Both the position numbers and the translations under genes were made by a program. This document shows positions 43,276-56,736 of a DNA stretch of 64,000 nt, in pieces (position 1 is the stretch's first letter; the number at the start of each line of letters is the position of its first letter). Source of the DNA: Vibrio vulnificus NBRC 15645 = ATCC 27562 (GTDB lineage Bacteria > Pseudomonadota > Gammaproteobacteria > Enterobacterales > Vibrionaceae); contig NZ_CP012882.1 in NCBI RefSeq assembly GCF_002224265.1, forward strand, positions 1,240,001-1,304,000. Direction: 5' to 3'. The notes beneath the pieces were generated by a model that was not told the DNA's origin, did not search any database, and was given only the letters and a program-made list of their open reading frames with translations.

Positions 43276-44823
43276 TCACTTTTGGATAAAGAATTCTTCG
43301 CTCGATAGGGCGAGGAATAGAATCTGTGAAAGTTTGGTCTTGGCGACATAGCTTTCTGGATAGTCATTTAGCGTGTTCAGCAATAGGCTTTCTAGGGCAT
43401 CTGACATTGCATCACCAAATAAACGCTCATTAATAAGATCGACTAAAGCTTGATGCTGATCCAAACGCTCGTAATAAGGAGCTAGGTTCATGTTCATGGT
43501 TGGATCGTTGTTACTCTTAATGGCGTAGTACATGTAGTTCACGACTTGGGTGTAGACGTTCCAATCTAGAAGCTCAAACTCTGGCGCGACTAAACCATTT
43601 TGCTCAAACTCTCCTTGAGGTGCGAAGTCTGGCGAATAAAAGTTAAATACGGAAGGCGCACGTAAGCCACCTTGATTGGCTACATTCAAAAAGGTTACCG
43701 CATTAATAAGCCTGTCGCTGGTGGGGGTGAGCTCAAAGGCACGGTGAAATTGTGTTAACACTAAAATCGGCTCTTTGATTTTGCTCGCACCGGCTTGGGC
43801 TTGCGGATCGGTCAGGATGGCGGAAAGCACCGCTTTGAGATCCCCACGAACCCCAGCACCATTATTGGCAAACACATTGGCAACGCGCTCGATGTACTCG
43901 GGACTCGGGTTTGAAGTGGTAAACCGCTGAATCAAAAGTCTCGATATAAAGGGAGCTACGTTAGGGTGCTGAAAGATAATATCCAGCACTAAATCAAGTT
44001 CAGCTTCTGGTTGCATGCCTGAAGGAATGGTGTGACCTAAAAACAACTTTTCACCACTATCGTGCGTACGTGCATTGGCCTTCATTGGCAGCAGGTAACT
44101 GTAGTCCGATCTCGACCAGCCAGTTAGCGAGCGCGCCAACTCCTGAATATCGTGCTGATGATAGGTGGCGAGTCGCTTACTGTTGGTGGTTTTGAATGAA
44201 CCGTCCATATTGATCTGATGCAAGCCAAGAGTGAACAATTGCATGAGTTCACGAGCGAAATTTTCGTCGGGCAGAGCACCGGTAGAGGCATTTTCTTTTT
44301 TACTGCCCATCATTGATAGATAGCTACCCATGACTGGACTAATGGCGATCTCTTTTAATAACTCTCGATAATTACCAAATGCATGCTCACCCAGTTGGTC
44401 ATAATACTGGCTAAGTGCTTGAGCTCTTGAACCAAATTGCCCGCCATAACGGGATACCACAACAATTTGGCTTAAAGCAAAAGCCATGCGTTGACGTAAT
44501 TGATCTTCCGCTTGTATCGAAATTTGATACCAAGCGTTTTCACGATTGGCCTGTTCTCCTTTCGGGAATGGCGTTAAGTACAGGGTTTGATGTGAGGTAA
44601 ATGGCAGTGAAAATTGATATTCAAGCCATGCTGTAATGCCCAAAGAATCTAGCTGTTGCTGAGTTTGTGGTGTTGGTCCAAAGGTGGTTTGATATAAAAA
44701 TTGATATTGTTGTTGCTTGGTAAGATTATTGTTCTCACCGGCTATTACGACAGGTATAGAAATTAAAAATAAAATACCTAACAGCAGAGCATTTCTAATA
44801 TTAATGTTCTGACGTTGTCTCAT
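43276..44823 (-). CDS. DUF1800 exported protein
   Basis: A 515-residue protein with an N-terminal signal sequence (ALLLGILFLISIPVVIAG) and DUF1800 features: QYQFLYQTTFGPTPQ, LRQRMAFALSQIVVVS, PDENFARELMQLFTLGLHQ and AVLSAILTDPQA, and VFNFYSPDFAP. ATG 44823 follows AAGAGAGT; another ATG lies 18 bases upstream. It is the first gene of the pair with DUF1501. Function unknown, though the two are thought to act together at the envelope. Confidence 0.9.
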   Translation of the reverse strand: MRQRQNINIRNALLLGILFLISIPVVIAGENNNLTKQQQYQFLYQTTFGPTPQTQQQLDSLGITAWLEYQFSLPFTSHQTLYLTPFPKGEQANRENAWYQISIQAEDQLRQRMAFALSQIVVVSRYGGQFGSRAQALSQYYDQLGEHAFGNYRELLKEIAISPVMGSYLSMMGSKKENASTGALPDENFARELMQLFTLGLHQINMDGSFKTTNSKRLATYHQHDIQELARSLTGWSRSDYSYLLPMKANARTHDSGEKLFLGHTIPSGMQPEAELDLVLDIIFQHPNVAPFISRLLIQRFTTSNPSPEYIERVANVFANNGAGVRGDLKAVLSAILTDPQAQAGASKIKEPILVLTQFHRAFELTPTSDRLINAVTFLNVANQGGLRAPSVFNFYSPDFAPQGEFEQNGLVAPEFELLDWNVYTQVVNYMYYAIKSNNDPTMNMNLAPYYERLDQHQALVDLINERLFGDAMSDALESLLLNTLNDYPESYVAKTKLSQILFLALSSEEFFIQK

Positions 44824-45167
44824 AATTGACTCTCTTACCATCCAAAAATGATAGCGTGGTTTTTAGCTCTATGAGCTGTAAAATAAACTACTAATCATTG
44901 GAAGCGCTTCTCCAAAATTATAGAGCGATAAACAGAACGCAGTGCAATTTTTTGTAAAAAATAAAGTGATGATATCTATCTTGTTGTTTTTTATGGAGTG
45001 TTAAATCTTCGATTAAATGCTGGTGGCTATTGATGGTATTAGAGTCGACATAAGTAGTGATAGCAATCGTACGAAAGTACCAAATTTCGTTATATTTTTT
45101 GAGCTTACTAAGAATGTAATAAAAAATAAGGGAAGCGATGCTTCCCTTATTTAATGCACTAATGAAA
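44824..45167. other. Intergenic region upstream of DUF1800 gene
   Basis: About 344 AT-rich bases containing the terminator of the flavoprotein gene at 45123-45151. I see no gene and no clear operator in the rest, which must contain the DUF1800 promoter. Confidence 0.5.
45123..45151 (-). terminator. Intrinsic terminator of the flavoprotein gene
   Basis: Read on the minus strand: AAATAAGGGAAGC-ATC-GCTTCCCTTATTTTTT, a strong stem with a T6 tract, 17 bases after the stop. Confidence 0.92.
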
Positions 45168-46871
45168 TTAACATTTAGCGAACATATAAGTTCGATAACC
45201 ACCCAGTAAATTGCGGGCTTTATAGCCGTTATTCACCAGTTGTCGATAGGCGACGTTACCGCGCAAGCCAACTTGGCAGTAGATGATGATCTCTTTGTCT
45301 TTTGGTAATTCATCCATTCGTTGGCGAAGTTGGTCCACCGGAATATTCATTGCGCCAGGCAAATAACCGCCTGCTTGCAGCTCACTAGGATTGCGCACAT
45401 CGAGCAGTAGTTGGTCGTCGTTCAGGTGTTCAATCTCATCAAAATGAATCGCTTTTGCGTCGCCTTTGATTAAGTTGTTGGCGACAAATGCCGCTTGGTT
45501 GATGACATCTTTTGCACTGCCGTAAGGAGGCGCATAGGTCAGTTCAAGATGTTGAAGTTGCTCAACCGTCATACCCGCACGTTGAGCGACGGCCATGACA
45601 TCGATACGTTTGTCGACACCGTCTTTTCCGACGGCTTGCGCACCAAAAATTTTGCCAGTTTTCGGATCAAACAACATTTTAAATGACACGATTTCAGCGC
45701 CTGGATAGTAACTCGCATGGCTTGCGGTATGGACGTAGACTTTTTCGTACTCGACACCATCTCGTTTGAGTTGTTTTTCGTTTTTACCTGTGGACGCAAC
45801 GGCCAAATCGAAGATCTTACAAATCGCGGTGCCTTGAGTACCTTGGTAGCGCTCACTGCGGCCAAGCATGTTGTCAGCTGCCATTCGACCTTGACGGTTT
45901 GCCGGGCCAGCTAGGGGAACAAGTGTTTGTTTTCCTGTCACAAAGTCTTTTTCTTCTACTGCATCGCCAACGGCATAGATCGAAGGATCACTGGTTTGCA
46001 TCATGTCGTTGGTGTAGATGCCGCCGAGCTCACCAATTTGTAGGCCTGCTTGCTGAGCCAGTTTGGTTTCTGGACGGACACCAATTGCCATAATCAGAAC
46101 ATCAGTGTTTAACGTATCCCCTGTACTCAGGCTCAGCGCTAAATGGCCAGAAATATGCTGATGTTGGATATCTTCACCCGCATTTTCGCTCGCAACATGA
46201 TCATTGGCGATGTATTCAACGCTGGTTAAAGCAGTACCTAAACGTAAATCGATGCCTTTGGCGCGAATTTCAGCATGCGCAAAACCGGCCATCTCGCGAT
46301 CAACCGGTGTCATCACTTGATCTGCCAATTCGAGTAACGTGGTCTTAATGCCTAATTGATGGAAGGCCTCCATCATTTCTAAGCCGATAAATCCACCCCC
46401 AACCACAGTGGCATGCTCGACGTTATTGGTTTGAATCGTTTGAATGATGCGATCCATATCTGGGATGTTACGCAAAGAATGGGTAAGAGGGTTATCGATA
46501 CCAGGAATCGGTGGCACAACAGGCCCTGCTCCGGGGCTCAATAATAGGAAATCATAACTTTCAGCGTATTCGCTACCATCGATTAAGTTTTTGACGGTGA
46601 CCGTTTTTTCGTGACGATTGATCGCAGTAATCTCGTTCATGACACGTACGTCAACATTAAATCGTGCGAGAAAGCTCTCTGGTGTTTGCAGAAGTAGCTT
46701 GCTGCGTTCTTTGATATCGCCACCAATGTGGTAAGGCAAGCCGCAATTCGCAAAAGAGACAAAAGGACCACGTTCAAACATGATTATCTGTGCATCTTCA
46801 CTCAAACGACGTGCTCTAGCTGCTGCTGAAGCACCACCTGCGACGCCACCAACGATCACGATTTTAGTCAT
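45168..46871 (-). CDS. CoA-disulfide/persulfide reductase with C-terminal rhodanese domain
   Basis: A 567-residue flavoprotein. The FAD domain (IVGGVAGGASAAARARR) carries the active-site Cys43 in SFANCGLPYHIGG, followed by an NAD domain (VVGGGFIGLEMMEAF) and a dimerisation domain. Residues about 470-567 form a rhodanese with catalytic Cys532 (IIYCQVGLRG). This CoADR-Rhd arrangement is known to reduce persulfides and polysulfides, including CoA-persulfide, with NADH. ATG 46871 is used; an in-frame TTG at 46880 is the alternative. Its neighbour is a DUF2892 gene and, divergently, a BigR/YgaV-type repressor, supporting a role in sulfane-sulfur detoxification. Confidence 0.93.
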   Translation of the reverse strand: MTKIVIVGGVAGGASAAARARRLSEDAQIIMFERGPFVSFANCGLPYHIGGDIKERSKLLLQTPESFLARFNVDVRVMNEITAINRHEKTVTVKNLIDGSEYAESYDFLLLSPGAGPVVPPIPGIDNPLTHSLRNIPDMDRIIQTIQTNNVEHATVVGGGFIGLEMMEAFHQLGIKTTLLELADQVMTPVDREMAGFAHAEIRAKGIDLRLGTALTSVEYIANDHVASENAGEDIQHQHISGHLALSLSTGDTLNTDVLIMAIGVRPETKLAQQAGLQIGELGGIYTNDMMQTSDPSIYAVGDAVEEKDFVTGKQTLVPLAGPANRQGRMAADNMLGRSERYQGTQGTAICKIFDLAVASTGKNEKQLKRDGVEYEKVYVHTASHASYYPGAEIVSFKMLFDPKTGKIFGAQAVGKDGVDKRIDVMAVAQRAGMTVEQLQHLELTYAPPYGSAKDVINQAAFVANNLIKGDAKAIHFDEIEHLNDDQLLLDVRNPSELQAGGYLPGAMNIPVDQLRQRMDELPKDKEIIIYCQVGLRGNVAYRQLVNNGYKARNLLGGYRTYMFAKC

Positions 46872-46956
46872 AATATTCAACCTCTGATTTTAGGATTGGA
46901 CCGAATTGTAGAGCGAAAAGGCAAACAACTCTGACAACTCGGTCAAATAAAACGAA

Positions 46957-47142
46957 TTACTTAAGGCCGAGCTTTTTAAGGAAAAAGACGGCTGGGCAAA
47001 AGCCCGTAAAGGCACTTTGAATCAAATTCAGGCCTACAAATACGGTCAACCAAACAAAATTTTCGTGAACGTATTGGGTAAGAACTAGAGATAGCAACAC
47101 CATGCTACCGGCCAAAATGCGAACTCCGTTTTCAATCGTCAT
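46957..47142 (-). CDS. DUF2892 small membrane protein (YgaP transmembrane-domain type)
   Basis: A 61-residue protein with two hydrophobic helices (VRILAGSMVLLSLVLTQYVH and FVWLTVFVGLNLIQSAFTGF) and the conserved C-terminal GFCPAVFFLKKLG. In E. coli YgaP, this domain is fused to a rhodanese; here it is separate and the rhodanese is fused to the adjacent flavoprotein. ATG 47142 with AAGAG upstream is chosen over GTG 47151. It is first in the leftward transcript, followed after about 85 bases by the flavoprotein gene. Confidence 0.9.
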   Translation of the reverse strand: MTIENGVRILAGSMVLLSLVLTQYVHENFVWLTVFVGLNLIQSAFTGFCPAVFFLKKLGLK

Positions 47143-47186
47143 AACAAGCACTCTTCGTTGTTGATAGGCATACCATACATAAGTAA

Positions 47187-47202
47187 ATTAGAAATGTCTA
47201 AT
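47187..47202. promoter_or_regulatory. Operator half of the divergent sulfur locus (inverted repeat 1)
   Basis: ATTAGA-AATG-TCTAAT: perfect 6-base arms. It lies within a possible leftward promoter (on the minus strand TTAGAC, 18 bases, TATGGT). The same TCTAA/TTAGA half-sites recur at 47212-47216 and 47227-47237. Confidence 0.65.
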
Positions 47203-47226
47203 AAAAATAAATCTAAATACAATAAA

Positions 47227-47237
47227 TCTAAATTAGA
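47227..47237. promoter_or_regulatory. Operator of the divergent sulfur locus (inverted repeat 2)
   Basis: TCTAA-A-TTAGA, immediately before the -35 element of the rightward promoter. Part of an ATAAATCTAAAT direct repeat (47207-47218 approximately, and 47223-47233). Likely bound by the adjacent ArsR-type repressor. Confidence 0.65.
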
Positions 47238-47238
47238 G

Positions 47239-47266
47239 TTGACTAATGTTTGTGTTTGCGTAAGAT
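47239..47266 (+). promoter_or_regulatory. Rightward promoter of the repressor-transporter-RND operon
   Basis: TTGACT (47239-47244), 16 bases, TAAGAT (47261-47266), 29 bases before the repressor ATG. Inverted repeat 2 abuts its -35 box. Confidence 0.6.
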
Positions 47267-47294
47267 TTAAACCAACGCAGGGGAGGTGGTTGTG

Positions 47295-47606
47295 ATGAGC
47301 AATGACAAAGTAATTGATTTAGAGCAGATGAGAGAGAGCGCGGAAAGCGTTTCTGAGCTGTTAAAAATAGTCGCGCATCCTGAGCGATTGATGGTGTTGT
47401 GCCAGCTAACAAAAGGTGAAATCGGTGTTGGTGAGCTTCAACAAAGCTCAACCTTGAGCCAATCCGCGTTTTCACAGCATCTCACCGTCTTACGGAAACA
47501 TGGTTTAGTTAAAGCGCGCAAAGCGTCTCAGCAAGTTTTTTATTCTTTAGCTGATCCCCGAATTGAAAAGCTGATCGGCAGTTTACAGTTTATTTTTTGT
47601 TCCTAA
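47295..47606 (+). CDS. ArsR-family repressor of the BigR/SqrR/YgaV persulfide-sensing type
   Basis: A 103-residue winged-helix protein. The recognition helix region is TLSQSAFSQHLTVLRKHGLV. Two cysteines, Cys36 (RLMVLCQLTKGE) and Cys102 (FIFCS at the extreme C terminus), sit where BigR, SqrR and YgaV carry their redox pair; oxidation by persulfide links them and releases DNA. ATG 47295 has GGGGAGG upstream. It faces a leftward sulfane-sulfur reductase unit and leads a rightward unit of two transporters and an RND pump, with TCTAA/TTAGA repeats between. It probably represses both units and itself. Confidence 0.88.
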   Translation: MSNDKVIDLEQMRESAESVSELLKIVAHPERLMVLCQLTKGEIGVGELQQSSTLSQSAFSQHLTVLRKHGLVKARKASQQVFYSLADPRIEKLIGSLQFIFCS

Positions 47607-47621
47607 TTTTGCGAGGAAGAT

Positions 47622-48044
47622 ATGACGTTTGTAGTACCTTGGGAGTCGTTGGCAGGAGGCATTTTACTTGGCATTTCTGCCTTAACCATGTTGTTGGTCA
47701 ACGGCAAAGTGGCAGGGATTAGCGGTATTTTGACGGGATTACTCACCCCTAAATCGAGAGATTTTGCGTGGCGTTTGATGTTCGTTATCGGCATGGTGAG
47801 TGGTGGTGTTTTGGCCGTGACTTTCGGTGCGGCGAGCGCATCGGTCGCGTTACCCACATCAGGCGTATTAATCGCTGCAGCTGGGTTGTTAGTGGGCATC
47901 GGCACACGTTTAGGAAATGGATGCACTAGTGGTCACGGGATCTGTGGCATTGGCCGTTTATCAAAACGCTCTATCGTCGCAACGGCGATTTTTATGGCGG
48001 TAGCTGCCATGACGGTTTTTGTTCGACTTCACTGGATTTCTTAA
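47622..48044 (+). CDS. YeeE/YedE-family membrane protein, first half (PmpA-like)
   Basis: A 140-residue membrane protein with about four helices and the sulfur-transport signature GTRLGNGCTSGHGICGIGRL, containing the conserved cysteine in GNGCTSGHG. Full-length TsuA/YeeE transports thiosulfate; short paired versions like this one and the next gene are common in BigR-controlled operons. It begins 15 bases after the repressor gene. Confidence 0.9.
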   Translation: MTFVVPWESLAGGILLGISALTMLLVNGKVAGISGILTGLLTPKSRDFAWRLMFVIGMVSGGVLAVTFGAASASVALPTSGVLIAAAGLLVGIGTRLGNGCTSGHGICGIGRLSKRSIVATAIFMAVAAMTVFVRLHWIS

Positions 48045-48052
48045 GCTAGGGC

Positions 48053-48520
48053 ATGAATAAAATGAATAATTTTGTCTTTCGATTGACGTCATTGATGGCG
48101 GGTATTTTGTTTGGTTTGGGGATGGCGATTTCAGGCATGACGGACCCCAATAAAGTGATTGGTTTTCTCGATATCGCAGGTCAATGGGACCCAAGCCTCA
48201 TGTTTGTGATGGGCGGTGCATTGGCGGTGTTCATGCCAGGTTACTTCTTGCTAATACGCAAACAACAGAAACCGCTCAATGCCGAGGCATTTTGCTTAGC
48301 CAGTCAGCAAACTATCGATAAACGTTTGGTCGCGGGCGCAACGATCTTTGGTATTGGTTGGGGCTTGGCTGGAATTTGCCCTGGCCCTGCTGTGGCAAGT
48401 TTGGGGCTTGGTAACATTCAAATTGTGCTTTTCTTTGCCGCCATGATGGTCGGATTAGGTGTTACCAACTTACTGATTTGTTTAAAAAATGCGCGAGAAG
48501 TCAAAACAGAACTTGCATAA
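48053..48520 (+). CDS. YeeE/YedE-family membrane protein, second half (PmpB-like)
   Basis: A 155-residue membrane protein with helices near 8-25, 42-60, 90-112 and 118-140 and the signature GWGLAGICPGPAVASLGLG, with conserved Cys. It starts 8 bases after the PmpA-like gene and probably forms a two-subunit sulfur-compound transporter with it. The RND adaptor gene follows after about 38 bases, with no terminator between. Confidence 0.9.
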   Translation: MNKMNNFVFRLTSLMAGILFGLGMAISGMTDPNKVIGFLDIAGQWDPSLMFVMGGALAVFMPGYFLLIRKQQKPLNAEAFCLASQQTIDKRLVAGATIFGIGWGLAGICPGPAVASLGLGNIQIVLFFAAMMVGLGVTNLLICLKNAREVKTELA

Positions 48521-48558
48521 CAAGACTATGCTGGAGTAAAGATCAAGGGAGATTATCT

Positions 48559-49563
48559 ATGCAATGGTTTAAACACTCAGCACTCGCAATGGGATTGCTT
48601 TCTGCTGTGCCTGCGATGGCGCACGCCGAAACCTACATCACTGAACTGAAGACTGTCGAGCAATTCGTTGTCTTTGATGGCGTTGTCCAGCCCGTCAATC
48701 AAGGTACTGTCGCAGCGCAAACGTCGGGTACAGTCGTGGCGTTAAATGTGGATGTAAACGACTTCGTCAAGCAAGGTACGGTGTTGCTGGAAATCAGTGC
48801 GGTGCAGCAGTCGGCGGCGCTTGATTCTGCTTTAGCTCAGTTGGCGAGTGCCAAAGCGCAAAATACGGAAGCTCAAGCTCAAGTAAAGCGCTTTCGCCAG
48901 TTGATGCCAAAAGGCGCCATCTCCCAAGATCAAATGGATGCAGCGGAATCTCGTGCCAGAAGTAGTGCGGCTGCGGTCAAATCTGCAGAAGCCGCCGTTG
49001 CGCAAGCGAAAGAATCTCTCGGTTACACAAGTGTCACTGCTCCTTATGATGGCGTCGTGACTAAGCGCTTTGTTGAGTTAGGTGAAACGGTGGCTCCGGG
49101 CATGCCTTTACTCAGTGGGTTCTCGTTACAACAACTGCGTGTCGAAACGCAGATCCCGCAGAATTATCGCGCTTATGTTAAAGAACCGACTCAGTTTGTG
49201 ATTGATAACGGGGCTGGTGAACAGGTTTCACCGCGCTCTTTCAATCTTTTCCAATACGCAGACTCGGCTTCTCATAGCTTTCCAATTCGCTTAAACCTAC
49301 CGGAAAATCAGGCAAATTTCGTTCCTGGCTCTTGGGTTAAAACTCGTTTTACTTATGGGCAAAGAGCCCTCTTGTTAGTGCCTAAGCAAGCGGTGATCCG
49401 TCGCGCAGAACTGAGTGTGGTCTATCGGCTTGATGACAACAATAAACCCATCTTGAATCCGATTCGTTTAGGACAAGAGTTTGAGGATAGCTATGAAGTG
49501 CTTTCCGGCCTAGAAATCGGTGATCGAATTACCACGGATCTCATCAACGTCAAAGGTGAATAG
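48559..49563 (+). CDS. RND efflux periplasmic adaptor (membrane fusion protein)
   Basis: A 334-residue exported adaptor. Signal peptide (MQWFKHSALAMGLLSAVPAMAHA), barrel-sandwich lipoyl half-motifs (GTVAAQTSGTVVALNVDVND and YTSVTAPYDGVVTKRFVELGE) either side of an alpha-hairpin coiled coil (about 95-165), then beta-barrel and membrane-proximal domains. There is no lipobox, unlike AcrA. ATG 48559 has AAGGGAG upstream; the open frame further upstream overlaps the PmpB-like gene and is not used. It ends 1 base before the pump gene. Confidence 0.92.
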   Translation: MQWFKHSALAMGLLSAVPAMAHAETYITELKTVEQFVVFDGVVQPVNQGTVAAQTSGTVVALNVDVNDFVKQGTVLLEISAVQQSAALDSALAQLASAKAQNTEAQAQVKRFRQLMPKGAISQDQMDAAESRARSSAAAVKSAEAAVAQAKESLGYTSVTAPYDGVVTKRFVELGETVAPGMPLLSGFSLQQLRVETQIPQNYRAYVKEPTQFVIDNGAGEQVSPRSFNLFQYADSASHSFPIRLNLPENQANFVPGSWVKTRFTYGQRALLLVPKQAVIRRAELSVVYRLDDNNKPILNPIRLGQEFEDSYEVLSGLEIGDRITTDLINVKGE

Positions 49564-49564
49564 T

Positions 49565-52500
49565 ATGGATACACGACTCGGAATTTCGGGTCGCATTGCC
49601 GCGGCCTTTCAACATTCAGCCATGACACCTTTGCTCGCTTTGGTGGGGCTATTGATGGGGTTATTTGCTGTAATCGTTACACCCAAAGAGGAAGAACCAC
49701 AAATAGATGTGACTTTTGCTGACGTGTATATCCCGTTTCCGGGCGCATCTCCTCAAGAAGTGGCCAGTTTGGTGACGACGCCTGTAGAGCAGGTGATCTC
49801 TGAAATTCAAGGCATCGATAAGATCTACTCCTTTTCTCAGCCTGATGGTGCGATGATCGTGGCGATCTTTGATGTTGGGGTCACGCGTAATGATGCCGTT
49901 GTGCGCATCTACAACAAACTCTATTCAAACAAAGACTGGATGCCACAAGGTGTTGGTGTCGGCGAGCCCGTGATAAAACCTCGCGGCATCGAGGATGTGC
50001 CCATTGTCACTGTGACCTTGTCTGATAAATCAGGGCATTATACTGGCCAACAACTCACGCAAATTGCTCACGGGCTTGAAACAGAGTTGAAAAGAATTGA
50101 CGGAACTCGCGATATCTACACTGTGGGCGCGCATTCCACTATTGTGGATGTGCGTCTAGACCCTGTAAAAATGAACGCTTACGGCATTAGTATTAGTCAA
50201 CTAAACCAAGTGTTGCCATCAGCGAATCGCCGCTCATCGATGTTGAGTTTAACTCATGATAATCAGCAAGTACCGTTACAGATTGGTGAGTTTCTCACTC
50301 ATGTTGACCAGATCAAGCAACTGGTGGTGGGTGTGGCGAATGGTGCGCCAGTCTATTTCTCGGATATTGCTGATGTTGAACTTGGGGTAAACACGCCAAC
50401 GCAAAATGTGTGGGCCAGTGATAAGCAGGGCCTTTACCCAGCCGTGACTTTGGCGATCGCGAAAAAGGGCGGTGAGAATGCGGTTGATGTCGCGCAAACG
50501 ATAGAAGATCGCCTAGAGGTCTTAAAAAATCAGTTGATTCCGCATGACGTTGATATCGCCATCACACGTGATTACGGAAAAACCGCAGCGGATAAAAGCA
50601 ACACGCTGATAGGCAAACTCGCTTTTGCAACTACGGCCGTGGTGTTGTTGGTGCTGCTGACGATGGGGTGGCGTGAGGCTCTGGTTGTGGGTATTGCCAT
50701 CGTTGTGACCTTAATGATCACTCTCTTTGCCTCTTGGGCTTGGGGATTTACACTCAATCGCGTCTCTTTATTTGCCCTGATCTTCTCCATCGGCATTCTT
50801 GTGGATGACGCCATTGTGGTGGTTGAAAATATTCACCGTCATATGTCGATGGGTAAGAAAAAACTGGCAGAGCTAATCCCTGTAGCAGTGGACGAAGTGG
50901 GTGGGCCAACGATACTGGCAACACTAACAGTTATCGCTGCGTTGCTGCCGATGGCGTTCGTTTCTGGCCTAATGGGGCCCTACATGAGCCCAATTCCGAT
51001 TAATGCTTCAATGGGGATGCTCATTTCGTTAGCCGTGGCTTTTGTGGTTTCTCCTTGGCTGTCGGGTAAGTTGCTAAAGTCAGGACAACACGAAGAGTCA
51101 CACAAAGCCGATTCTATCTTCCATAAAATCATGTCGCCGTTTATTACCGCCAGATCGCAAGGGCGCAATCGCTTCTTGTTATTACTCGGTATTGTTGGGC
51201 TAATTGCTGCATCGGTGGCGTTGCCAGTGATGCAGGCGGTGGTGTTGAAAATGCTGCCTTTTGACAATAAGTCTGAGTTCCAAGTGGTGCTCGACATGCC
51301 AGAAGGGAGTTCACTTGAAAAGACTCAGAGAGTGCTTTTTGAAATGGCACAATCGCTTAACGAAGTGCCAGAGGTGAGTGACTATCAGATTTACGTCGGT
51401 AGCGCTGCGCCAATCAACTTTAACGGTTTGGTTCGCCACTACTTCTTACGCAATCAAGCTCATCAGGGGGATATCCAAGTGAATTTGTTGGATCGTCGTG
51501 AGCGAGAGAGAGACAGCCACGAGATTGCCAGTTCGGTACGCCCGATGCTTAACCAGATTGCCAGCCAGTTTGGCGGCAAAGTCAAAGTAGTGGAAGTACC
51601 GCCGGGGCCACCCGTTTGGTCGCCAATTTTGGCTGAGGTGTATGCGCCTACCGCCGAATTGCGCGCCGAGGCAGCGCGCCAAGTCAGAGACATTTTCAGA
51701 GAAACGCAAGATATCGTCGATGTCGATATGTACTTGCCTGAGATTCACCAAAAATGGCAAGTGGTGATCGACCGAAGTAAATCAGCCAATCTAATGGTGC
51801 CCTACAGTGACATCGTTGATGCTTTGGCGACGGCAGTGGGTGGTAAGCCAGTCACTTATTTGCACGCTGAACACAGCAAGTATCCAATCCCCGTGATGAT
51901 TCAAGCAAATGAAAGTGCGAAAGTGCGCCTGGAGCAAGTGTTAAACATGCAGGTCGTCAGTCAAACGGGCAACCGATACCCATTGTCTGAGCTCGTGAGC
52001 ATTCGTCAAACTAAGATGGAAGACTATATTGTGCACAAAAACCTTGTGCCTATGGTCATGGTGGTGGCGGATATGACTGGGGAAACGGACAGTCCGCTCT
52101 ACGGTATGGCGGCTTTATCAGGAACCTTGTCTGAGCGTATGCCGCTAGAGCAATACTTCATTCATCAGCCAGATGGCCTTCAGGGGATTTCCATCATGTG
52201 GGATGGCGAGTGGACCATCACTTATGAAACGTTCCGTGATATGGGGATCGCTTACGCTGTGGGCATGGTGCTTATCTACTTGCTGGTGGTGGCGCAGTTT
52301 AAATCCTATTTAGTGCCATTGATCATCATGGCACCCATTCCACTGACCATTATTGGTGTGATGCCAGGGCATGCTTTGTTGGGCGCGCAATTTACCGCAA
52401 CCTCGATGATCGGCATGATTGCGCTTGCAGGGATTATCGTGCGAAATTCCATTTTGCTGGTGGATTTTATTAACCAGCAAGTGGAAGAAGGGGTTGAGTT

Positions 52501-52714
52501 TGCGGAAGCGGTAATGCAATCAGCAGCGGTTAGGGCAAAACCGATTATGCTTACCGCGTTGGCTGCGATGATTGGAGCAGTGTTTATCCTTGATGATCCC
52601 ATTTTTAATGGTCTGGCAATCAGCTTAATCTTTGGTATCTTCGTCTCGACGATTCTTACCTTGATAGTGATTCCTGTGCTCTATTACGCGGCAATGAAAA
52701 AGCGCTTTGTCTAG
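49565..52714 (+). CDS. RND-family inner-membrane efflux pump
   Basis: A 1049-residue AcrB/MexB-type permease with the twelve-helix, two-large-loop layout. Motifs: N-terminal VGLLMGLFAVIVTPKEEEP, porter region FPGASPQEVASLVTTPVEQ, TM4 GILVDDAIVVVENIHRHM (Asp pair of the proton relay), and the second-half TM motif IALAGIIVRNSILLVDF. Substrate class cannot be read reliably, but the PKEEEPQI segment occurs in non-AcrB hydrophobic-and-amphiphilic groups. No outer-membrane channel gene follows, so it likely uses an unlinked TolC. Transcriptional linkage with a persulfide repressor is unusual. Confidence 0.93.
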   Translation: MDTRLGISGRIAAAFQHSAMTPLLALVGLLMGLFAVIVTPKEEEPQIDVTFADVYIPFPGASPQEVASLVTTPVEQVISEIQGIDKIYSFSQPDGAMIVAIFDVGVTRNDAVVRIYNKLYSNKDWMPQGVGVGEPVIKPRGIEDVPIVTVTLSDKSGHYTGQQLTQIAHGLETELKRIDGTRDIYTVGAHSTIVDVRLDPVKMNAYGISISQLNQVLPSANRRSSMLSLTHDNQQVPLQIGEFLTHVDQIKQLVVGVANGAPVYFSDIADVELGVNTPTQNVWASDKQGLYPAVTLAIAKKGGENAVDVAQTIEDRLEVLKNQLIPHDVDIAITRDYGKTAADKSNTLIGKLAFATTAVVLLVLLTMGWREALVVGIAIVVTLMITLFASWAWGFTLNRVSLFALIFSIGILVDDAIVVVENIHRHMSMGKKKLAELIPVAVDEVGGPTILATLTVIAALLPMAFVSGLMGPYMSPIPINASMGMLISLAVAFVVSPWLSGKLLKSGQHEESHKADSIFHKIMSPFITARSQGRNRFLLLLGIVGLIAASVALPVMQAVVLKMLPFDNKSEFQVVLDMPEGSSLEKTQRVLFEMAQSLNEVPEVSDYQIYVGSAAPINFNGLVRHYFLRNQAHQGDIQVNLLDRRERERDSHEIASSVRPMLNQIASQFGGKVKVVEVPPGPPVWSPILAEVYAPTAELRAEAARQVRDIFRETQDIVDVDMYLPEIHQKWQVVIDRSKSANLMVPYSDIVDALATAVGGKPVTYLHAEHSKYPIPVMIQANESAKVRLEQVLNMQVVSQTGNRYPLSELVSIRQTKMEDYIVHKNLVPMVMVVADMTGETDSPLYGMAALSGTLSERMPLEQYFIHQPDGLQGISIMWDGEWTITYETFRDMGIAYAVGMVLIYLLVVAQFKSYLVPLIIMAPIPLTIIGVMPGHALLGAQFTATSMIGMIALAGIIVRNSILLVDFINQQVEEGVEFAEAVMQSAAVRAKPIMLTALAAMIGAVFILDDPIFNGLAISLIFGIFVSTILTLIVIPVLYYAAMKKRFV

Positions 52715-52775
52715 GCATTGGCGTGCGAACAAATCTCACCATTGAAGTGCAACAGACCTAAGTAACCAATTAACA

Positions 52776-52795
52776 AGAGCCCCGACGTAGGGGCT
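52776..52795 (+). terminator. Hairpin after the RND operon
   Basis: GAGCCCC-GACGTA-GGGGCTC (arms 7 bases), 60 bases after the stop; the T tract is interrupted, so it is a moderate terminator. Confidence 0.6.
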
Positions 52796-52805
52796 CGTAT
52801 CTATA

Positions 52806-52868
52806 TTTTAAATTTCTTTATTTCTAATTTCTTTAACTCTAAATTTTTCTCTATTTCTTTCTCTTGCT
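52806..52868. repeat. Pyrimidine-rich low-complexity tract with short imperfect repeats
   Basis: On the plus strand almost entirely T, C and A, with ATTTCTTT recurring three times (minus strand AAAGAAAT). It lies just downstream of the secreted nuclease gene and does not encode anything recognisable. Confidence 0.7.
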
Positions 52869-52883
52869 TATCATGACGATGCG

Positions 52884-53777
52884 TTAAGGTAAGGTCACTG
52901 TGGTTGAGACCGGGCAGTGATCGCTCAATTGATACTCCAACACATCGTTGCTGGTAAACAACCTCTGCTCTCCTTGTGAGGCACTTAAACCTTCGCTGAT
53001 GATGATGTGGTCAATAAGTGAACGAAAAGAATGAACCTTATTGGGGTGTTTTTTGGAGCGAACCTTACAGTTTGCTTTGGTGTCTTCCGTCAACAAATGA
53101 ATTTTGCCGGCACTGGTGAGTTCATTCATCAGCCAGTCATTACGATAAGCAAGGTTATGGTTGAAGTCTCCAAGCACAAGATAGGTTTGCTTGTTGTTAT
53201 GCCTTTGGCTAATCCATTGGCCAAGTGCTTGGCTTTCAAGTCGGAGTGTTCGACAAGCATCATTGCCTTTATACGCTCCGCTACACCCCGCCTTGAGGTG
53301 AACGTTTAACACATGCACCTCATTTGAAGCGTTACCAATAATGACGTATGAGGCAAAGCGCAGCTTACTGTTGCCTTTGTTGAGTTGGATGTCACCGACG
53401 TCGCGAAAAGGAATGCCTTTCTTGATGGCAAATCCTGTGTATTGATTGATGTCATCGAATTGAAAACGCTGATAGCGCGGATTAGAGCGATCCGAAAACA
53501 GGATCTGATAGTTGGTTCCGACGACTTTTTTAATCGCGGCCAAGTCATTGACCTCCTGAAAGGCCAAAACATCGCTGTTGGTTTTTTGGAAGTACATTGC
53601 CAATTTGGCAAAATCCTCGTCATTACGGTGACTTTCTTTGACTCGTGCTGAAGCTGTGGACGAAAGCCATTCCATGTTCCAACTGGTGAACGTGATTGGT
53701 TGAGCGGCCAAAAGGGGCGTTGGCAAGAGTAAATAAACCAAGCCGGTGAAAAAGAGACCAAGCGCGTGCTTCAGCAT
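52884..53777 (-). CDS. Secreted endonuclease/exonuclease/phosphatase-family protein
   Basis: A 297-residue exported protein (signal LGLFFTGLVYLLLPTPLLA). The EEP-fold motifs are all present: FTSWNMEWL, VLAFQEV (metal-binding Glu), LNVHLKAGC, LVLGDFNHN, SLIDHIIIS and QLSDHCPVSTTV (catalytic His). This fold includes DNases, phosphodiesterases and sphingomyelinases. The general EEP motifs do not identify the substrate; an extracellular nuclease or phosphatase is most likely. Monocistronic. Confidence 0.9.
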   Translation of the reverse strand: MLKHALGLFFTGLVYLLLPTPLLAAQPITFTSWNMEWLSSTASARVKESHRNDEDFAKLAMYFQKTNSDVLAFQEVNDLAAIKKVVGTNYQILFSDRSNPRYQRFQFDDINQYTGFAIKKGIPFRDVGDIQLNKGNSKLRFASYVIIGNASNEVHVLNVHLKAGCSGAYKGNDACRTLRLESQALGQWISQRHNNKQTYLVLGDFNHNLAYRNDWLMNELTSAGKIHLLTEDTKANCKVRSKKHPNKVHSFRSLIDHIIISEGLSASQGEQRLFTSNDVLEYQLSDHCPVSTTVTLP

Positions 53778-54073: not shown

Positions 54074-56194
54074 GTGAAACCAATCGTAATCAAGCGTGAT
54101 GGCTCAAGGGCTCCGTTTAGCAGGGATCGCATTCAGGCAGCAGTTGAAGCCGCCGCGGAAAACGTTGATAAAGAAATTGCTATTTATGCGCTCAATGTGG
54201 CGCTGGCAGTTGAGCTACAGCTAAAAGATCACGATGAAGTTCATATCCACGAAATCCAAACCCGCGTTGAAAACGAGTTGATGCAAGGTCCATACAAGTC
54301 TTTAGCTCGTGCGTACATTGAATATCGTCATGACCGCGATATTGCACGTGAGAAACAAAGCACCTTAACACGCGAAATTGAAGGCTTAATCGAAGAAAGC
54401 AACGTTGACTTAATCAACGAAAATGCCAATAAAGATGGCAAAGTGATCCCAACTCAACGTGATTTGCTTGCTGGCATTGTGGCTAAACACTACGCGAAAA
54501 CGCACATTTTGCCACGTGATGTGGTTCAAGCGCATGATGAAGGTGATATTCACTATCACGATCTCGATTACGCGCCGTTTTTCCCAATGTTTAACTGCAT
54601 GCTGATTGACCTGAAAGGCATGCTGACTCACGGCTTTAAAATGGGTAATGCGGAAATTGACACGCCTAAGTCAATTTCAACCGCAACTGCGGTGACTGCG
54701 CAAATTATCGCGCAAGTGGCGAGCCACATTTATGGTGGTACCACCATCAATCGCATTGATGAGATCCTTGAGCCGTATGTTAACGCGAGTTACGAAAAGC
54801 ACTTAAAAATTGCCCAAGAGTGGGATATCCATAATCCAGAAGGTTTTGCCATCGCACGAACTGAGAAAGAGTGTTACGACGCATTCCAATCTTTGGAGTA
54901 TGAAGTGAATACGCTGCACACTGCAAATGGGCAAACACCATTTGTGACGTTTGGTTTTGGTTTGGGTACAAGTTGGGCATCGAAATTGATTCAACAATCC
55001 ATTTTGAAAAACCGTATTGCGGGTCTAGGCAAAAACCGCAAAACAGCGGTGTTCCCGAAACTGGTATTCGCCATTAAAGATGGTCTGAATCATAAACCAA
55101 CCGATCCAAACTACGACATCAAACAACTGGCGTTAGAGTGTGCTTCTAAGCGTATGTACCCAGATATCTTGAACTACGACAAAGTGGTTGAGATCACCGG
55201 ATCATTCAAAACGCCAATGGGCTGCCGTAGCTTCCTAGGCACCTACGAGGAGAATGGGGAACTGATTCACGAAGGTCGTAACAACCTTGGTGTGGTAAGC
55301 CTGAACTTGCCAAGAATTGCACTAAAAGCAGATGGCGATGAAGAGAAGTTCTATGCGCTATTGGATGAAAAACTGAAGCTAGCTCGTCGAGCGCTCGAAA
55401 CGCGCATTAGCCGTTTAGAGAATGTTAAAGCTCGCGTAGCACCAATTCTATACATGGAAGGGGCTTGTGGTGTGCGTCTGAAAGCCGATCAACCTATCGC
55501 AGATATCTTCAAGCATGGGCGTTCGTCTATTTCGTTAGGTTACATCGGTATCCATGAAACCATTAACGCGCTGTTTGGTAATCAAACTCATGTTTACGAT
55601 GACAATGAACTGCGTGAAAAAGCGTTGAACATTGTTAAACGCATGAAGAGCGCTGTCGAAGCGTGGACGGAAGAAACGGGTTATGGCTTTAGCTTGTACG
55701 GCACGCCAAGTGAGAACCTCTGTAGCCGCTTCTGCCGAATCGACACCAAAGAATTTGGTGTGATTGAAGGCGTGACAGACAAAGGTTACTACACCAACAG
55801 CTTCCATTTGGATGTTGAAAAGAAAGTAAACCCATACGACAAGATCGACTTTGAGATGCCGTACCCTGAAATTTCGAGTGGTGGTTTTATCTGTTATGGT
55901 GAATTCCCTAACATGCAAAAGAACGTCGAAGCGTTAGAAAATGTGTGGGATTACAGTTACAGCAAAGTGCCTTACTACGGTACCAATACACCGATTGATG
56001 AATGCTATGAGTGTGGTTATACCGGAGAGTTTGATTGTACGAGCAAAGGGTTTACCTGTCCGAAATGTGGCAATCATGACTCATCCAAGGTATCGGTCAC
56101 TCGTCGCGTTTGCGGTTACTTAGGCAGTCCAGATGCGCGCCCATTTAACTTTGGTAAACAAGAAGAAGTGAAACGTCGCGTAAAACACCTGTAA
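54074..56194 (+). CDS. nrdD: Anaerobic ribonucleoside-triphosphate reductase
   Basis: A 706-residue class III ribonucleotide reductase that makes deoxynucleotides without oxygen. N-terminal ATP-cone (MKPIVIKRDGSRAPFSRDRI), ten-stranded barrel core, C-terminal zinc site (CYECGYTGEF with CPKCGN) and glycyl-radical loop RRVCGYLG with radical Gly681, the same number as in E. coli. Start is GTG 54074 with a strong TAAGGAG upstream. It is followed by its activase nrdG. A perfect FNR site and paired NrdR boxes upstream predict induction by anoxia and repression when dNTPs are ample. Confidence 0.98.
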   Translation: MKPIVIKRDGSRAPFSRDRIQAAVEAAAENVDKEIAIYALNVALAVELQLKDHDEVHIHEIQTRVENELMQGPYKSLARAYIEYRHDRDIAREKQSTLTREIEGLIEESNVDLINENANKDGKVIPTQRDLLAGIVAKHYAKTHILPRDVVQAHDEGDIHYHDLDYAPFFPMFNCMLIDLKGMLTHGFKMGNAEIDTPKSISTATAVTAQIIAQVASHIYGGTTINRIDEILEPYVNASYEKHLKIAQEWDIHNPEGFAIARTEKECYDAFQSLEYEVNTLHTANGQTPFVTFGFGLGTSWASKLIQQSILKNRIAGLGKNRKTAVFPKLVFAIKDGLNHKPTDPNYDIKQLALECASKRMYPDILNYDKVVEITGSFKTPMGCRSFLGTYEENGELIHEGRNNLGVVSLNLPRIALKADGDEEKFYALLDEKLKLARRALETRISRLENVKARVAPILYMEGACGVRLKADQPIADIFKHGRSSISLGYIGIHETINALFGNQTHVYDDNELREKALNIVKRMKSAVEAWTEETGYGFSLYGTPSENLCSRFCRIDTKEFGVIEGVTDKGYYTNSFHLDVEKKVNPYDKIDFEMPYPEISSGGFICYGEFPNMQKNVEALENVWDYSYSKVPYYGTNTPIDECYECGYTGEFDCTSKGFTCPKCGNHDSSKVSVTRRVCGYLGSPDARPFNFGKQEEVKRRVKHL

Positions 56195-56268
56195 ATAACG
56201 CATTAGGTTTCATCCGTTATTCAATGAGCCAACCCCATCCGGTTGGTTCATTTTTTCCAGAGGTCAAT

Positions 56269-56736
56269 ATGAATTATCACCAGTATTATCCCGTCGATGT
56301 GGTTAATGGACCAGGTACGCGATGCACGCTGTTTGTTTCAGGCTGTGTTCATCAATGTCGTGGTTGCTACAATCAATCGACGCAGCGTTTAGATTCTGGT
56401 GTGCCGTTTACGCAAGAAGCGGAAGATAAAATCATTGCGGATCTTAATGACACTCGTATCAAACGCCGTGGTTTATCGCTCTCTGGCGGGGATCCATTGC
56501 ATCCAGCAAATGTGGCCGATATTTTGCGTTTGGTAAAGCGCGTCAAACAGGAATGCCCGGAGAAAGACATCTGGGTTTGGACGGGATACACGCTTGATGA
56601 GCTTGACGAAGCTCAACGACAAATACTGCCATACATCGACACATTGATAGACGGTAAGTTTGAGCAAGACAAAGCGGACCCAAGCTTGGAATGGCGGGGA
56701 AGCGCGAATCAAATCATTCATTGCTTTAAGCTCTAG
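56269..56736 (+). CDS. nrdG: Anaerobic ribonucleotide-reductase activating protein
   Basis: A 155-residue radical-SAM enzyme with the CX3CX2C cluster motif at Cys26, Cys30 and Cys33 (SGCVHQCRGCYNQ), matching E. coli numbering. It uses S-adenosylmethionine and a [4Fe-4S] cluster to form the glycyl radical on NrdD. ATG 56269 has AGAGG upstream; the longer frame is not used. Co-transcribed with nrdD. Confidence 0.97.
   Translation: MNYHQYYPVDVVNGPGTRCTLFVSGCVHQCRGCYNQSTQRLDSGVPFTQEAEDKIIADLNDTRIKRRGLSLSGGDPLHPANVADILRLVKRVKQECPEKDIWVWTGYTLDELDEAQRQILPYIDTLIDGKFEQDKADPSLEWRGSANQIIHCFKL

Follow-up and report, generated by a model that had tools for sequence, protein, structure and literature searches.

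Organization of the locus

The subject of this analysis is a divergent locus of Vibrio vulnificus NBRC 15645 (contig NZ_CP012882.1; genome of 5.0 Mb in two contigs) in which a BigR-type repressor gene, genes related to sulfane-sulfur functions and an RND efflux pump stand together. The stretch analysed, called the window below, comprises 64,000 nucleotides (contig positions 1,240,001 to 1,304,000), and all coordinates refer to it. The locus contains the following features.

45168..46871, minus strand: 567-aa flavoprotein resembling NADH-dependent persulfide reductase, rhodanese domain at the C terminus, with Cys43 and, in the rhodanese, Cys532 (Pfam matches to Pyr_redox_2, dimerisation and Rhodanese; 3nta, 1025 bits, residues 1-566)
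46957..47142, minus strand: DUF2892/YgaP-like transmembrane hairpin protein, 61 aa (PF11127, 50.7 bits; YgaP transmembrane domain 2mpn, E 4.7e-7)
47143..47294, unstranded: divergent regulatory region, DUF2892 to BigR (from the sequence; arrangement conserved)
47188..47201, unstranded: probable BigR operator TTAGAAATGTCTAA (sole exact TTAGA-N4-TCTAA of the 64-kb window)
47227..47237, unstranded: second palindrome TCTAAATTAGA, a possible second operator, directly 5' of a promoter-like -35 element (47239) (read from the sequence)
47295..47606, plus strand: BigR/YgaV-type ArsR repressor, 103 aa, Cys36 and Cys102 (NF040642, 94.5 bits; 3pqj, 77.4 bits; cysteine pair)
47622..48044, plus strand: YeeE/YedE half-transporter, C-terminal half, PmpA-like (PF04143 model positions 173-306)
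48053..48520, plus strand: YeeE/YedE half-transporter, N-terminal half, PmpB-like, DUF6691 (PF20398, 149.1 bits; PF04143 model positions 10-104, 26.4 bits against a cut-off of 27)
48559..49563, plus strand: RND periplasmic adaptor, 334 aa, no cysteine (TIGR01730, 200 bits; 6vej_P, 152 bits)
49565..52714, plus strand: RND permease (type A), 1049 aa, no cysteine (PF00873, 534.8 bits; permease tree)
52777..52796, unstranded: G+C-rich inverted repeat between the pump and a convergent endonuclease gene, a possible end of the transcription unit (terminator-like match, listed for the minus strand only)

All reading frames named in a preliminary description of the sequence are present, and their families were confirmed by profile and structure-sequence matches. 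Its account of a divergent BigR-type persulfide-response locus stands, down to the exact positions of Cys36 and Cys102, as does that of two YeeE/YedE half-transporters. Cys36 and Cys102 are the only cysteines of the repressor, which aligns to BigR (3pqj), and each is present in at least 90% of 25 aligned rows. Because its score of 94.5 bits is under the cut-off of 155 bits of the NCBIfam equivalog NF040642, the protein is regarded as BigR-like and outside that equivalog; it is called BigR below for brevity. The genome encodes a second ArsR protein, 40% identical to BigR, with neighbours read as rpsT and an nhaR-like gene; from this context we take it to be HlyU.

Residues 1-566 of the flavoprotein align to residues 1-565 of 3nta (1025 bits), which we take to be the NADH-dependent persulfide reductase (Npsr) of Shewanella loihica. 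The CoA-disulfide-reductase fold, the active cysteine (Cys43, within SFANCGLPYH), the C-terminal rhodanese with Cys532 and full-length similarity, all features of the Npsr type, are found in it; the likeness covers the protein only. The name proposed earlier, a CoA-disulfide-reductase/rhodanese flavoprotein, is therefore right as to fold and rhodanese, but the protein scores 486.7 bits against the 578.8-bit cut-off of the CoA-disulfide reductase equivalog TIGR03385, and 3nta is closest. Directly 3' of the reductase gene, on the minus strand at 45124-45152, lies a 13-pair terminator-like hairpin with a T run.

The DUF2892 protein has the YgaP-like transmembrane domain (PF11127; 2mpn) and stands alone at 61 aa, with no rhodanese fused to it; its Cys49-Pro50 is invariant in 22 aligned rows. 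The two short YeeE/YedE proteins correspond to the C-terminal and the N-terminal half of the family model, as in a split transporter of the PmpAB type, and have cysteines at 101 and 108 (C-half) and at 81, 109 and 143 (N-half). PmpA and PmpB likewise match the C- and N-terminal halves of YeeE/YedE (PMC11582611). The permease fits the RND drug/hydrophobe exporter family (ACR_tran, PF00873), and its D414 and D415 are invariant in 26 pumps. These residues, read as the paired aspartates of the proton relay, presumably correspond to AcrB D407/D408, and the position that we presume to be that of the relay lysine reads Arg960. No outer-membrane channel was found among the nine scanned proteins of 43276-53777; the pump relatives L176, L183 and L186 have one encoded with them.

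From BigR through the YeeE halves and the adaptor to the permease, the plus-strand intergenic gaps are 15, 8, 38 and 1 nt, a spacing suggestive of co-transcription. The preliminary description had placed the pump behind the same promoter with no visible terminator. On the plus strand no terminator-like site was found in 48240-49854; four sites lie within the YeeE-half genes (two in 47973-48012, one each at 48087-48100 and 48221-48239). Since the scan gave 19 sites against 9.7 in shuffles, such matches carry little weight. A promoter-like match is present at 47239-47266, matches of this kind being no commoner than in shuffles. A mobile element was among the readings set aside: the G+C content of the pump (0.491) is close to that of the window (0.465). 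The related pump of Vibrio sp. HDW18, described below, does lie on a plasmid.

Two pump lineages in Vibrionaceae

The family sample comprised 159 Vibrionaceae genomes, searched with BigR and with the adaptor. Besides the window, 73 BigR matches were listed, down to an E-value of 4.4e-25, and 60 were mapped. The 13 outside the mapped set come from two genomes with the pump (G028, G048) and eleven without it at the search threshold (G031, G036, G046, G051, G055, G059, G063, G071, G075, G122, G128). Genome G011 contributes three of the mapped loci (L056, L059, L082), which are separate BigR-YeeE-reductase loci, all without a pump.

Close relatives of the adaptor (57-65% identical) were found in eleven other genomes, always downstream of the best BigR match and on the same strand. 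The position of the pump is constant, after BigR or after the YeeE halves. Eleven loci carry the window's kind of pump, with the adaptor gene preceding that of the permease (type A; permease 71-82% identical), and 19 carry a pump with the permease first (type B; 32-47% identity depending on the fragment, mostly 35-37%). The closest relative noted is the permease of Vibrio sp. 05-20-BW147, 92% identical. Each of the 35 pump genomes among the 159 has a single such pump, four candidates having been scored per genome. When named genomes were searched with the adaptor, 32 loci emerged, every one from Vibrio, including V. mimicus, V. metoecus, V. furnissii, V. anguillarum, V. tubiashii and V. mediterranei; BigR is present in 30, DUF2892 in 31 and the reductase in 29, and one locus (L110) ends at a contig end. 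Counts of cysteines and palindromes given below pool the loci of the family sample and of the named genomes, so some species are counted twice.

As the arrangement is conserved across species, it is not a product of chance. The possibility raised in the preliminary description, that the pump pair is a random insertion missing from homologous loci, is ruled out by its occurrence in the same slot in 30 of the 60 mapped loci. In a permease tree of 73 rows, obtained by a quick method without bootstrap and containing 12 rows of unusual composition as well as long branches for L182 and two more rows, types A and B form separate clades, each on one side of a starred branch. Type A stands beside pumps from other families that adjoin DUF2892 (L182, L185, L186; SH-aLRT 96), whereas the companions of type B are pumps in which the permease gene comes first. 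On a reductase tree of 74 rows, 66 of them different, the labels A, B and none require 17 changes against a minimum of 2; its backbone is weak, its bootstrap unsettled, and the fragments L065, L075, L113, L117 and L118 were dropped from it. A single ancestral pump followed by losses is insufficient, since A and B are two clades. Judged from these trees, two distinct RND lineages occupy one slot beside BigR and the reductase.

Permeases free of cysteine make up 16 of 21 of type A, 14 of 16 of type B and 11 of 20 control relatives. Cysteine avoidance as a special adaptation of the pumps was dropped, being seen in control relatives too, and because it is not specific to types A and B it is not used as evidence on the substrate.

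Association of DUF2892 with the pump

Among the mapped BigR loci DUF2892 is found in 28 of the 30 with a pump and in two of the 30 without one. By profile searches of the 159 genomes, 35 have a type A or B pump, 37 have DUF2892, 35 have both and 122 neither (Fisher p 3.5e-33, kinship ignored), and in 31 of the 35 the pair lies within 3 kb on one contig. The two genes are on separate contigs, near the ends, in G028 and G048, and DUF2892 lies away from the pump in G014 and G084. Eleven loci (L088, L089, L107, L108, L110, L113, L115, L116, L118, L119, L121) have DUF2892 off the divergent position, directly behind the permease and on its strand. A plasmid of Vibrio sp. HDW18 carries the genes of DUF2892, the adaptor and the permease; BigR, the reductase and YeeE are all missing from the stretch that was read.

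Within BigR loci, gene content thus indicates that DUF2892 is more closely tied to the pump than to BigR or the reductase, and the two quite probably form a functional pair. A linkage due solely to a shared sulfide-response island, with no joint function, is rather unlikely. It would fit the separated genes of G014 and G084, the second DUF2892 gene found beside YeeE genes in Paracoccus, and Azospira suillum Dsui_0042, a DUF2892 gene outside the Dsui_3440-3443 operon discussed below (PMC5358917). It would not explain why DUF2892 tracks the pump rather than BigR or the reductase, or why the HDW18 plasmid keeps the pair without the rest.

The candidate operator palindrome

The palindrome TTAGA-N4-TCTAA occurs in a single exact copy in the window, at 47188-47201 (mean of shuffles 0.05). 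Within 150 bp before BigR it is found exactly in 45 of 90 loci and with at most one mismatch in 84 of 90 (shuffles 0.1 and 1.9). The fetched loci, about 1.3 Mb in all, contain 48 exact palindromes, of which 46 lie within these 150 bp and the other two start 62 bp before the adaptor gene. Compared by eye, the half-site agrees with known sites, since CTAA/TTAG or TCTAA halves are present in an operator oligonucleotide of V. cholerae HlyU (PMC10509353) and in a primer upstream of E. coli ygaV (PMC9774250).

In 10 of the 13 type A loci with a gap of at least 180 bp between YeeB, the second YeeE/YedE half, and the adaptor (gap lengths computed from the first possible start codon), a second copy with at most one mismatch starts 48-71 bp before the adaptor; shuffled gaps equal this placement in 0 to 6 of 100. 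These ten loci form one group of related Vibrio species, and the cases are not independent. One of the long-gap species is V. hangzhouensis (L108). Among the remaining long-gap loci, the palindrome of L118 is 278 bp off, and the gap lengths of L096, L118 and L120 are unsure because neighbouring frames are broken. In Vibrio gelatinilyticus (L116) BigR sits behind the permease and DUF2892 in one row, and the palindrome precedes the pump, not BigR. In L187 and L188 BigR is gone from its slot, the other genes remain and the palindrome is kept between DUF2892 and YeeA, which suggests control by a paralogue from elsewhere.

Regulation by BigR appears well supported by this conservation, and the pump itself very probably belongs to the BigR regulon because of the 15/8/38/1-nt spacing together with the second palindrome copy before the pump in the long-gap Vibrio group. 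A BigR homologue lacking both cysteines was observed in G157 (L074), with no reductase, YeeE or pump in the mapped stretch; it likely has a different function.

Relatives outside Vibrionaceae

In a class-wide set of 369 genomes a pump relative was found in 188 and DUF2892 in 169; the two occur together in 147, the pump alone in 41 and DUF2892 alone in 22, and 159 lack both, counts that are confounded by lineage. Eleven loci in which the two genes adjoin were chosen irrespective of ArsR (for L178, L179, L180 and L186 the place of DUF2892 was taken from the class-wide DUF2892 search). In six of the eleven the permease is preceded, at a distance of up to about 3.4 kb, by a gene for an ArsR protein with the cysteine pair, against one of 20 score-picked RND relatives (L174, the single BigR-like neighbour among them). 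This BigR-like ArsR lies near the pump in L176, L178, L179, L180 and L181 and about 3 kb off in L184; the ArsR of L185 lacks the pair, and no ArsR was seen in the loci read for L177, L182, L183 and L186. The palindrome precedes BigR in L178 and L179. Among the neighbouring genes are those for a protein with four rhodanese domains (L179), for a thioredoxin (L178) and for SQR-like flavoproteins (L180, L185), SQR-like meaning a best match to an SQR model with a score under its cut-off; unrelated genes occur as well.

Twelve of 25 listed plasmid records were also read, ranked by similarity to a DUF2892-linked pump and hence not a neutral sample. DUF2892 is present in ten of the twelve stretches, ArsR in nine and ArsR with a clear cysteine pair in seven. 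In Aeromonas caviae DUF2892, BigR, YeeA, YeeB, adaptor and permease follow the window's order, without the reductase. In Paracoccus denitrificans, whose laboratory strain PD1222 has the unit on plasmid 1, a Blh-type dioxygenase (570.6 against 625 bits), an SQR-like enzyme and a sulfur transferase are added, P. pantotrophus has a similar set by annotation, and in Paracoccus a second DUF2892 lies beside YeeE genes. SQR-like neighbours were further seen in Rhizobium rhizogenes, Asticcacaulis and the cyanobacterium Pseudanabaena, and rhodaneses in Azospirillum (two, the second by annotation), Asticcacaulis and Pseudanabaena. Both ArsR proteins of the Pseudanabaena stretch lack the cysteine pair, and the Alloyangia and Shinella stretches contain neither DUF2892 nor ArsR. 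In Azospirillum (71% G+C) a one-mismatch palindrome lies between DUF2892 and the adaptor on both plasmids read (shuffles 0.0).

Comparison with known systems

A neighbourhood survey of sulfane-sulfur ArsR regulators names RND pumps, in one sentence, as probable targets (PMC12423496), and the regulator and transporter classes are those of the window locus; the word DUF2892 is absent from its main text, and its section 2.1 contains neither an operator nor a pump exchange. RND pumps near sulfane-sulfur ArsR repressors are thus already in the literature, and a DUF2892-adaptor-pump unit with ArsR recurs outside Vibrio, so the preliminary view of the pump as foreign to the usual module is not upheld. 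It is better described not as an added arm but as a sulfur-response pump that recurs together with a small partner protein of the membrane.

The strongest outside support for a sulfur-linked pump appears to come from Azospira suillum, in which Dsui_3440-3443 encode an unknown protein, an RND permease, SQR and an adaptor; the genes are strongly expressed with H2S and give a transposon fitness signal, and the separate DUF2892 gene Dsui_0042 rises about 10-fold with sulfide (PMC5358917). It shares with the window locus an RND pump and adaptor, in Azospira together with SQR in a sulfide-induced operon, and DUF2892, in Azospira sulfide-induced, the likeness being at the level of the RND family. It differs in its other gene content and in having SQR in place of the reductase, and the word ArsR is absent from that article.

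The BigR operons of Xylella, Agrobacterium and Acinetobacter baumannii (yeeE-yedE-pdo2) and the Serratia PigS-PmpAB system resemble the window locus in having a BigR-type repressor by a sulfane-sulfur enzyme; those of A. baumannii and Serratia also have split YeeE/YedE genes. A. baumannii has PDO2 where the window has a persulfide reductase, and the word RND is absent from its BigR paper (PMC7315123). The E. coli ygaVP operon shares the BigR-type YgaV, the YgaP-like membrane domain and the rhodanese domain, but YgaP unites rhodanese and membrane hairpin in one protein, whereas the window encodes the two separately, the hairpin being associated with the pump. In a 2022 review (PMC9774590) the words RND, efflux, export, DUF2892 and YgaP are all absent. 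Searches of openly licensed literature yielded no description of DUF2892 as a partner of an RND pump, of one pump replacing another at a BigR locus, or of a pump with a BigR-type operator, and these three (the partnership, the exchange and the pump's own operator) look new.

Proposed function and alternatives

It is moderately probable that the locus as a whole serves BigR-controlled defence against persulfides and polysulfides, with the pump as a conserved member and DUF2892 as its partner. Bridging of the repressor cysteines by sulfane sulfur, with release from DNA, is known for BigR, SqrR, YgaV and HlyU. By analogy with these characterised relatives, reduced BigR would sit on the palindrome of the divergent region and shut both arms, and a sulfane-sulfur bridge between Cys36 and Cys102 would release it. 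One arm would then supply the persulfide reductase with its rhodanese, converting persulfide to H2S with NADH, and the DUF2892 membrane hairpin; the other would supply the split YeeE/YedE transporter, which may move a sulfur ion, and the tripartite RND pump, whose outer-membrane channel would come from an unlinked gene elsewhere. DUF2892 would act as the working partner of the pump, probably as an inner-membrane accessory subunit whose invariant cysteine may hold sulfane sulfur. What the pump most likely exports is a by-product left by the enzymes, hydrophobic or of sulfane-sulfur nature (polysulfide, S0 or an organic polysulfane); sulfane sulfur as the actual substrate is a tentative proposal, somewhat short of an even chance.

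A number of observations weigh against this reading. A pump is missing from 30 of the 60 BigR loci mapped in Vibrionaceae, and in L042 (G112) and L053 (G104), the sole two such cases among the 159 genomes, DUF2892 stands without a pump beside BigR and the reductase, perhaps after recent pump loss. In the class-wide set, DUF2892 and the pump were seen side by side, by eye, only in the window's own genome and 11 others among the matches listed, against 147 genomes with both, and most of the co-occurrence in that set is thus not established as linkage. The palindrome, with at most one mismatch, is absent in 14 of 19 non-Vibrio loci, and the copy in L183 is at an unrelated place. It is present in only 11 of 23 loci with a YeeB-pump gap of at least 60 bp, all of type A; it is lacking upstream of the pump in all seven loci of type B, whose gaps measure 64-338 bp (338 bp in L085), and in three of type A, whose gaps measure 114-126 bp. 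The idea of further BigR targets in the window's own genome was dropped, as none are visible: the genome has four exact palindromes against three for the reversed control, the three besides the locus being at G000:C1:694014, 740985 and 1276418. In Azospira, deletion of the whole RND/SQR operon left the H2S oxidation rate unchanged, that of the DUF2892 gene only slightly delayed the onset of oxidation, and the pumps are interpreted by the authors as exporters of metal sulfides (PMC5358917). These deletion results are not decisive, since oxidation rate is not tolerance.

The palindrome-free type B gaps, the YeeB-adaptor gaps of 180-505 bp in some Vibrio loci and, weakly, the terminator-like sites within the YeeE-half genes would suit an unrelated promoter of the pump's own, outside BigR control. 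Such a promoter is very unlikely in view of the palindrome copy close to the pump in 10 of the 13 long-gap type A loci and of the 38-nt gap of the window, which has no terminator-like site.

The Azospira authors' proposal also bears on the substrate. Export of metals or of metal-sulfide complexes, arising where sulfide meets metals, instead of sulfur compounds would agree with that proposal for sulfide-induced pumps (PMC5358917), with the frequent role of ArsR proteins as metal sensors and with the cation P-type ATPase and VIT family genes in the same stretch as the Shinella plasmid relative. It is nevertheless unlikely, as TIGR00914, the model for CusA/CzcA, gives the permease 267 bits where its cut-off is 701, and the DUF2892, rhodanese, YeeE and SQR-like neighbours are sulfur genes.

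A somewhat larger, still small, chance is given to a pump that expels thiol-reactive hydrophobic xenobiotics (organotins, organosulfur compounds, quinones) which trip BigR, sulfur being only the sensing route. The best solved relative of the adaptor is the 6vej adaptor, which we take to be that of the triclosan pump TriABC. Tributyltin derepresses E. coli ygaVP (PMC9774250), and H2S-linked antibiotic tolerance of E. coli requires YgaV. On the other side, multidrug permease models stay far under their cut-offs (NF033617, 477.5 against 1250), and sulfide enzymes adjoin several distant pump relatives.

The locus suggests that in some bacteria toxic sulfur species are exported as well as broken down. 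Persulfide stress is described mainly in terms of oxidation and reduction, and tripartite RND export receives little beyond passing mention in the literature consulted. Through its linkage to the pump the widespread DUF2892 gains a concrete candidate partner, and the linkage offers a reason for the RND pumps in sulfide-response data such as those from Azospira. Should BigR-type sensors switch on RND pumps, sulfide could alter tolerance to pump substrates, which bears on the protection from antibiotics by H2S. A broader generalization is possible but doubtful: stand-alone DUF2892 hairpins may be dedicated small subunits of a sulfane-sulfur-exporting RND family. The BigR-controlled sulfur pump would then have arisen two or more times in Vibrionaceae, from distinct RND lineages, with further occurrences in Gammaproteobacteria, Alphaproteobacteria and a cyanobacterium, and export would be a third way to clear persulfides besides oxidation and reduction.

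Adjacent genes and other observations

Just past the locus, the frames at 54074-56736 presumably encode an anaerobic ribonucleotide reductase and its activase. Five of the pump relatives (L161, L162, L169, L170, L172) are followed by a similar row of proteins of about 302-340, 114-128 and 356-359 aa, which in L161 are a LysR regulator, an unknown protein and an AI-2E family transporter.

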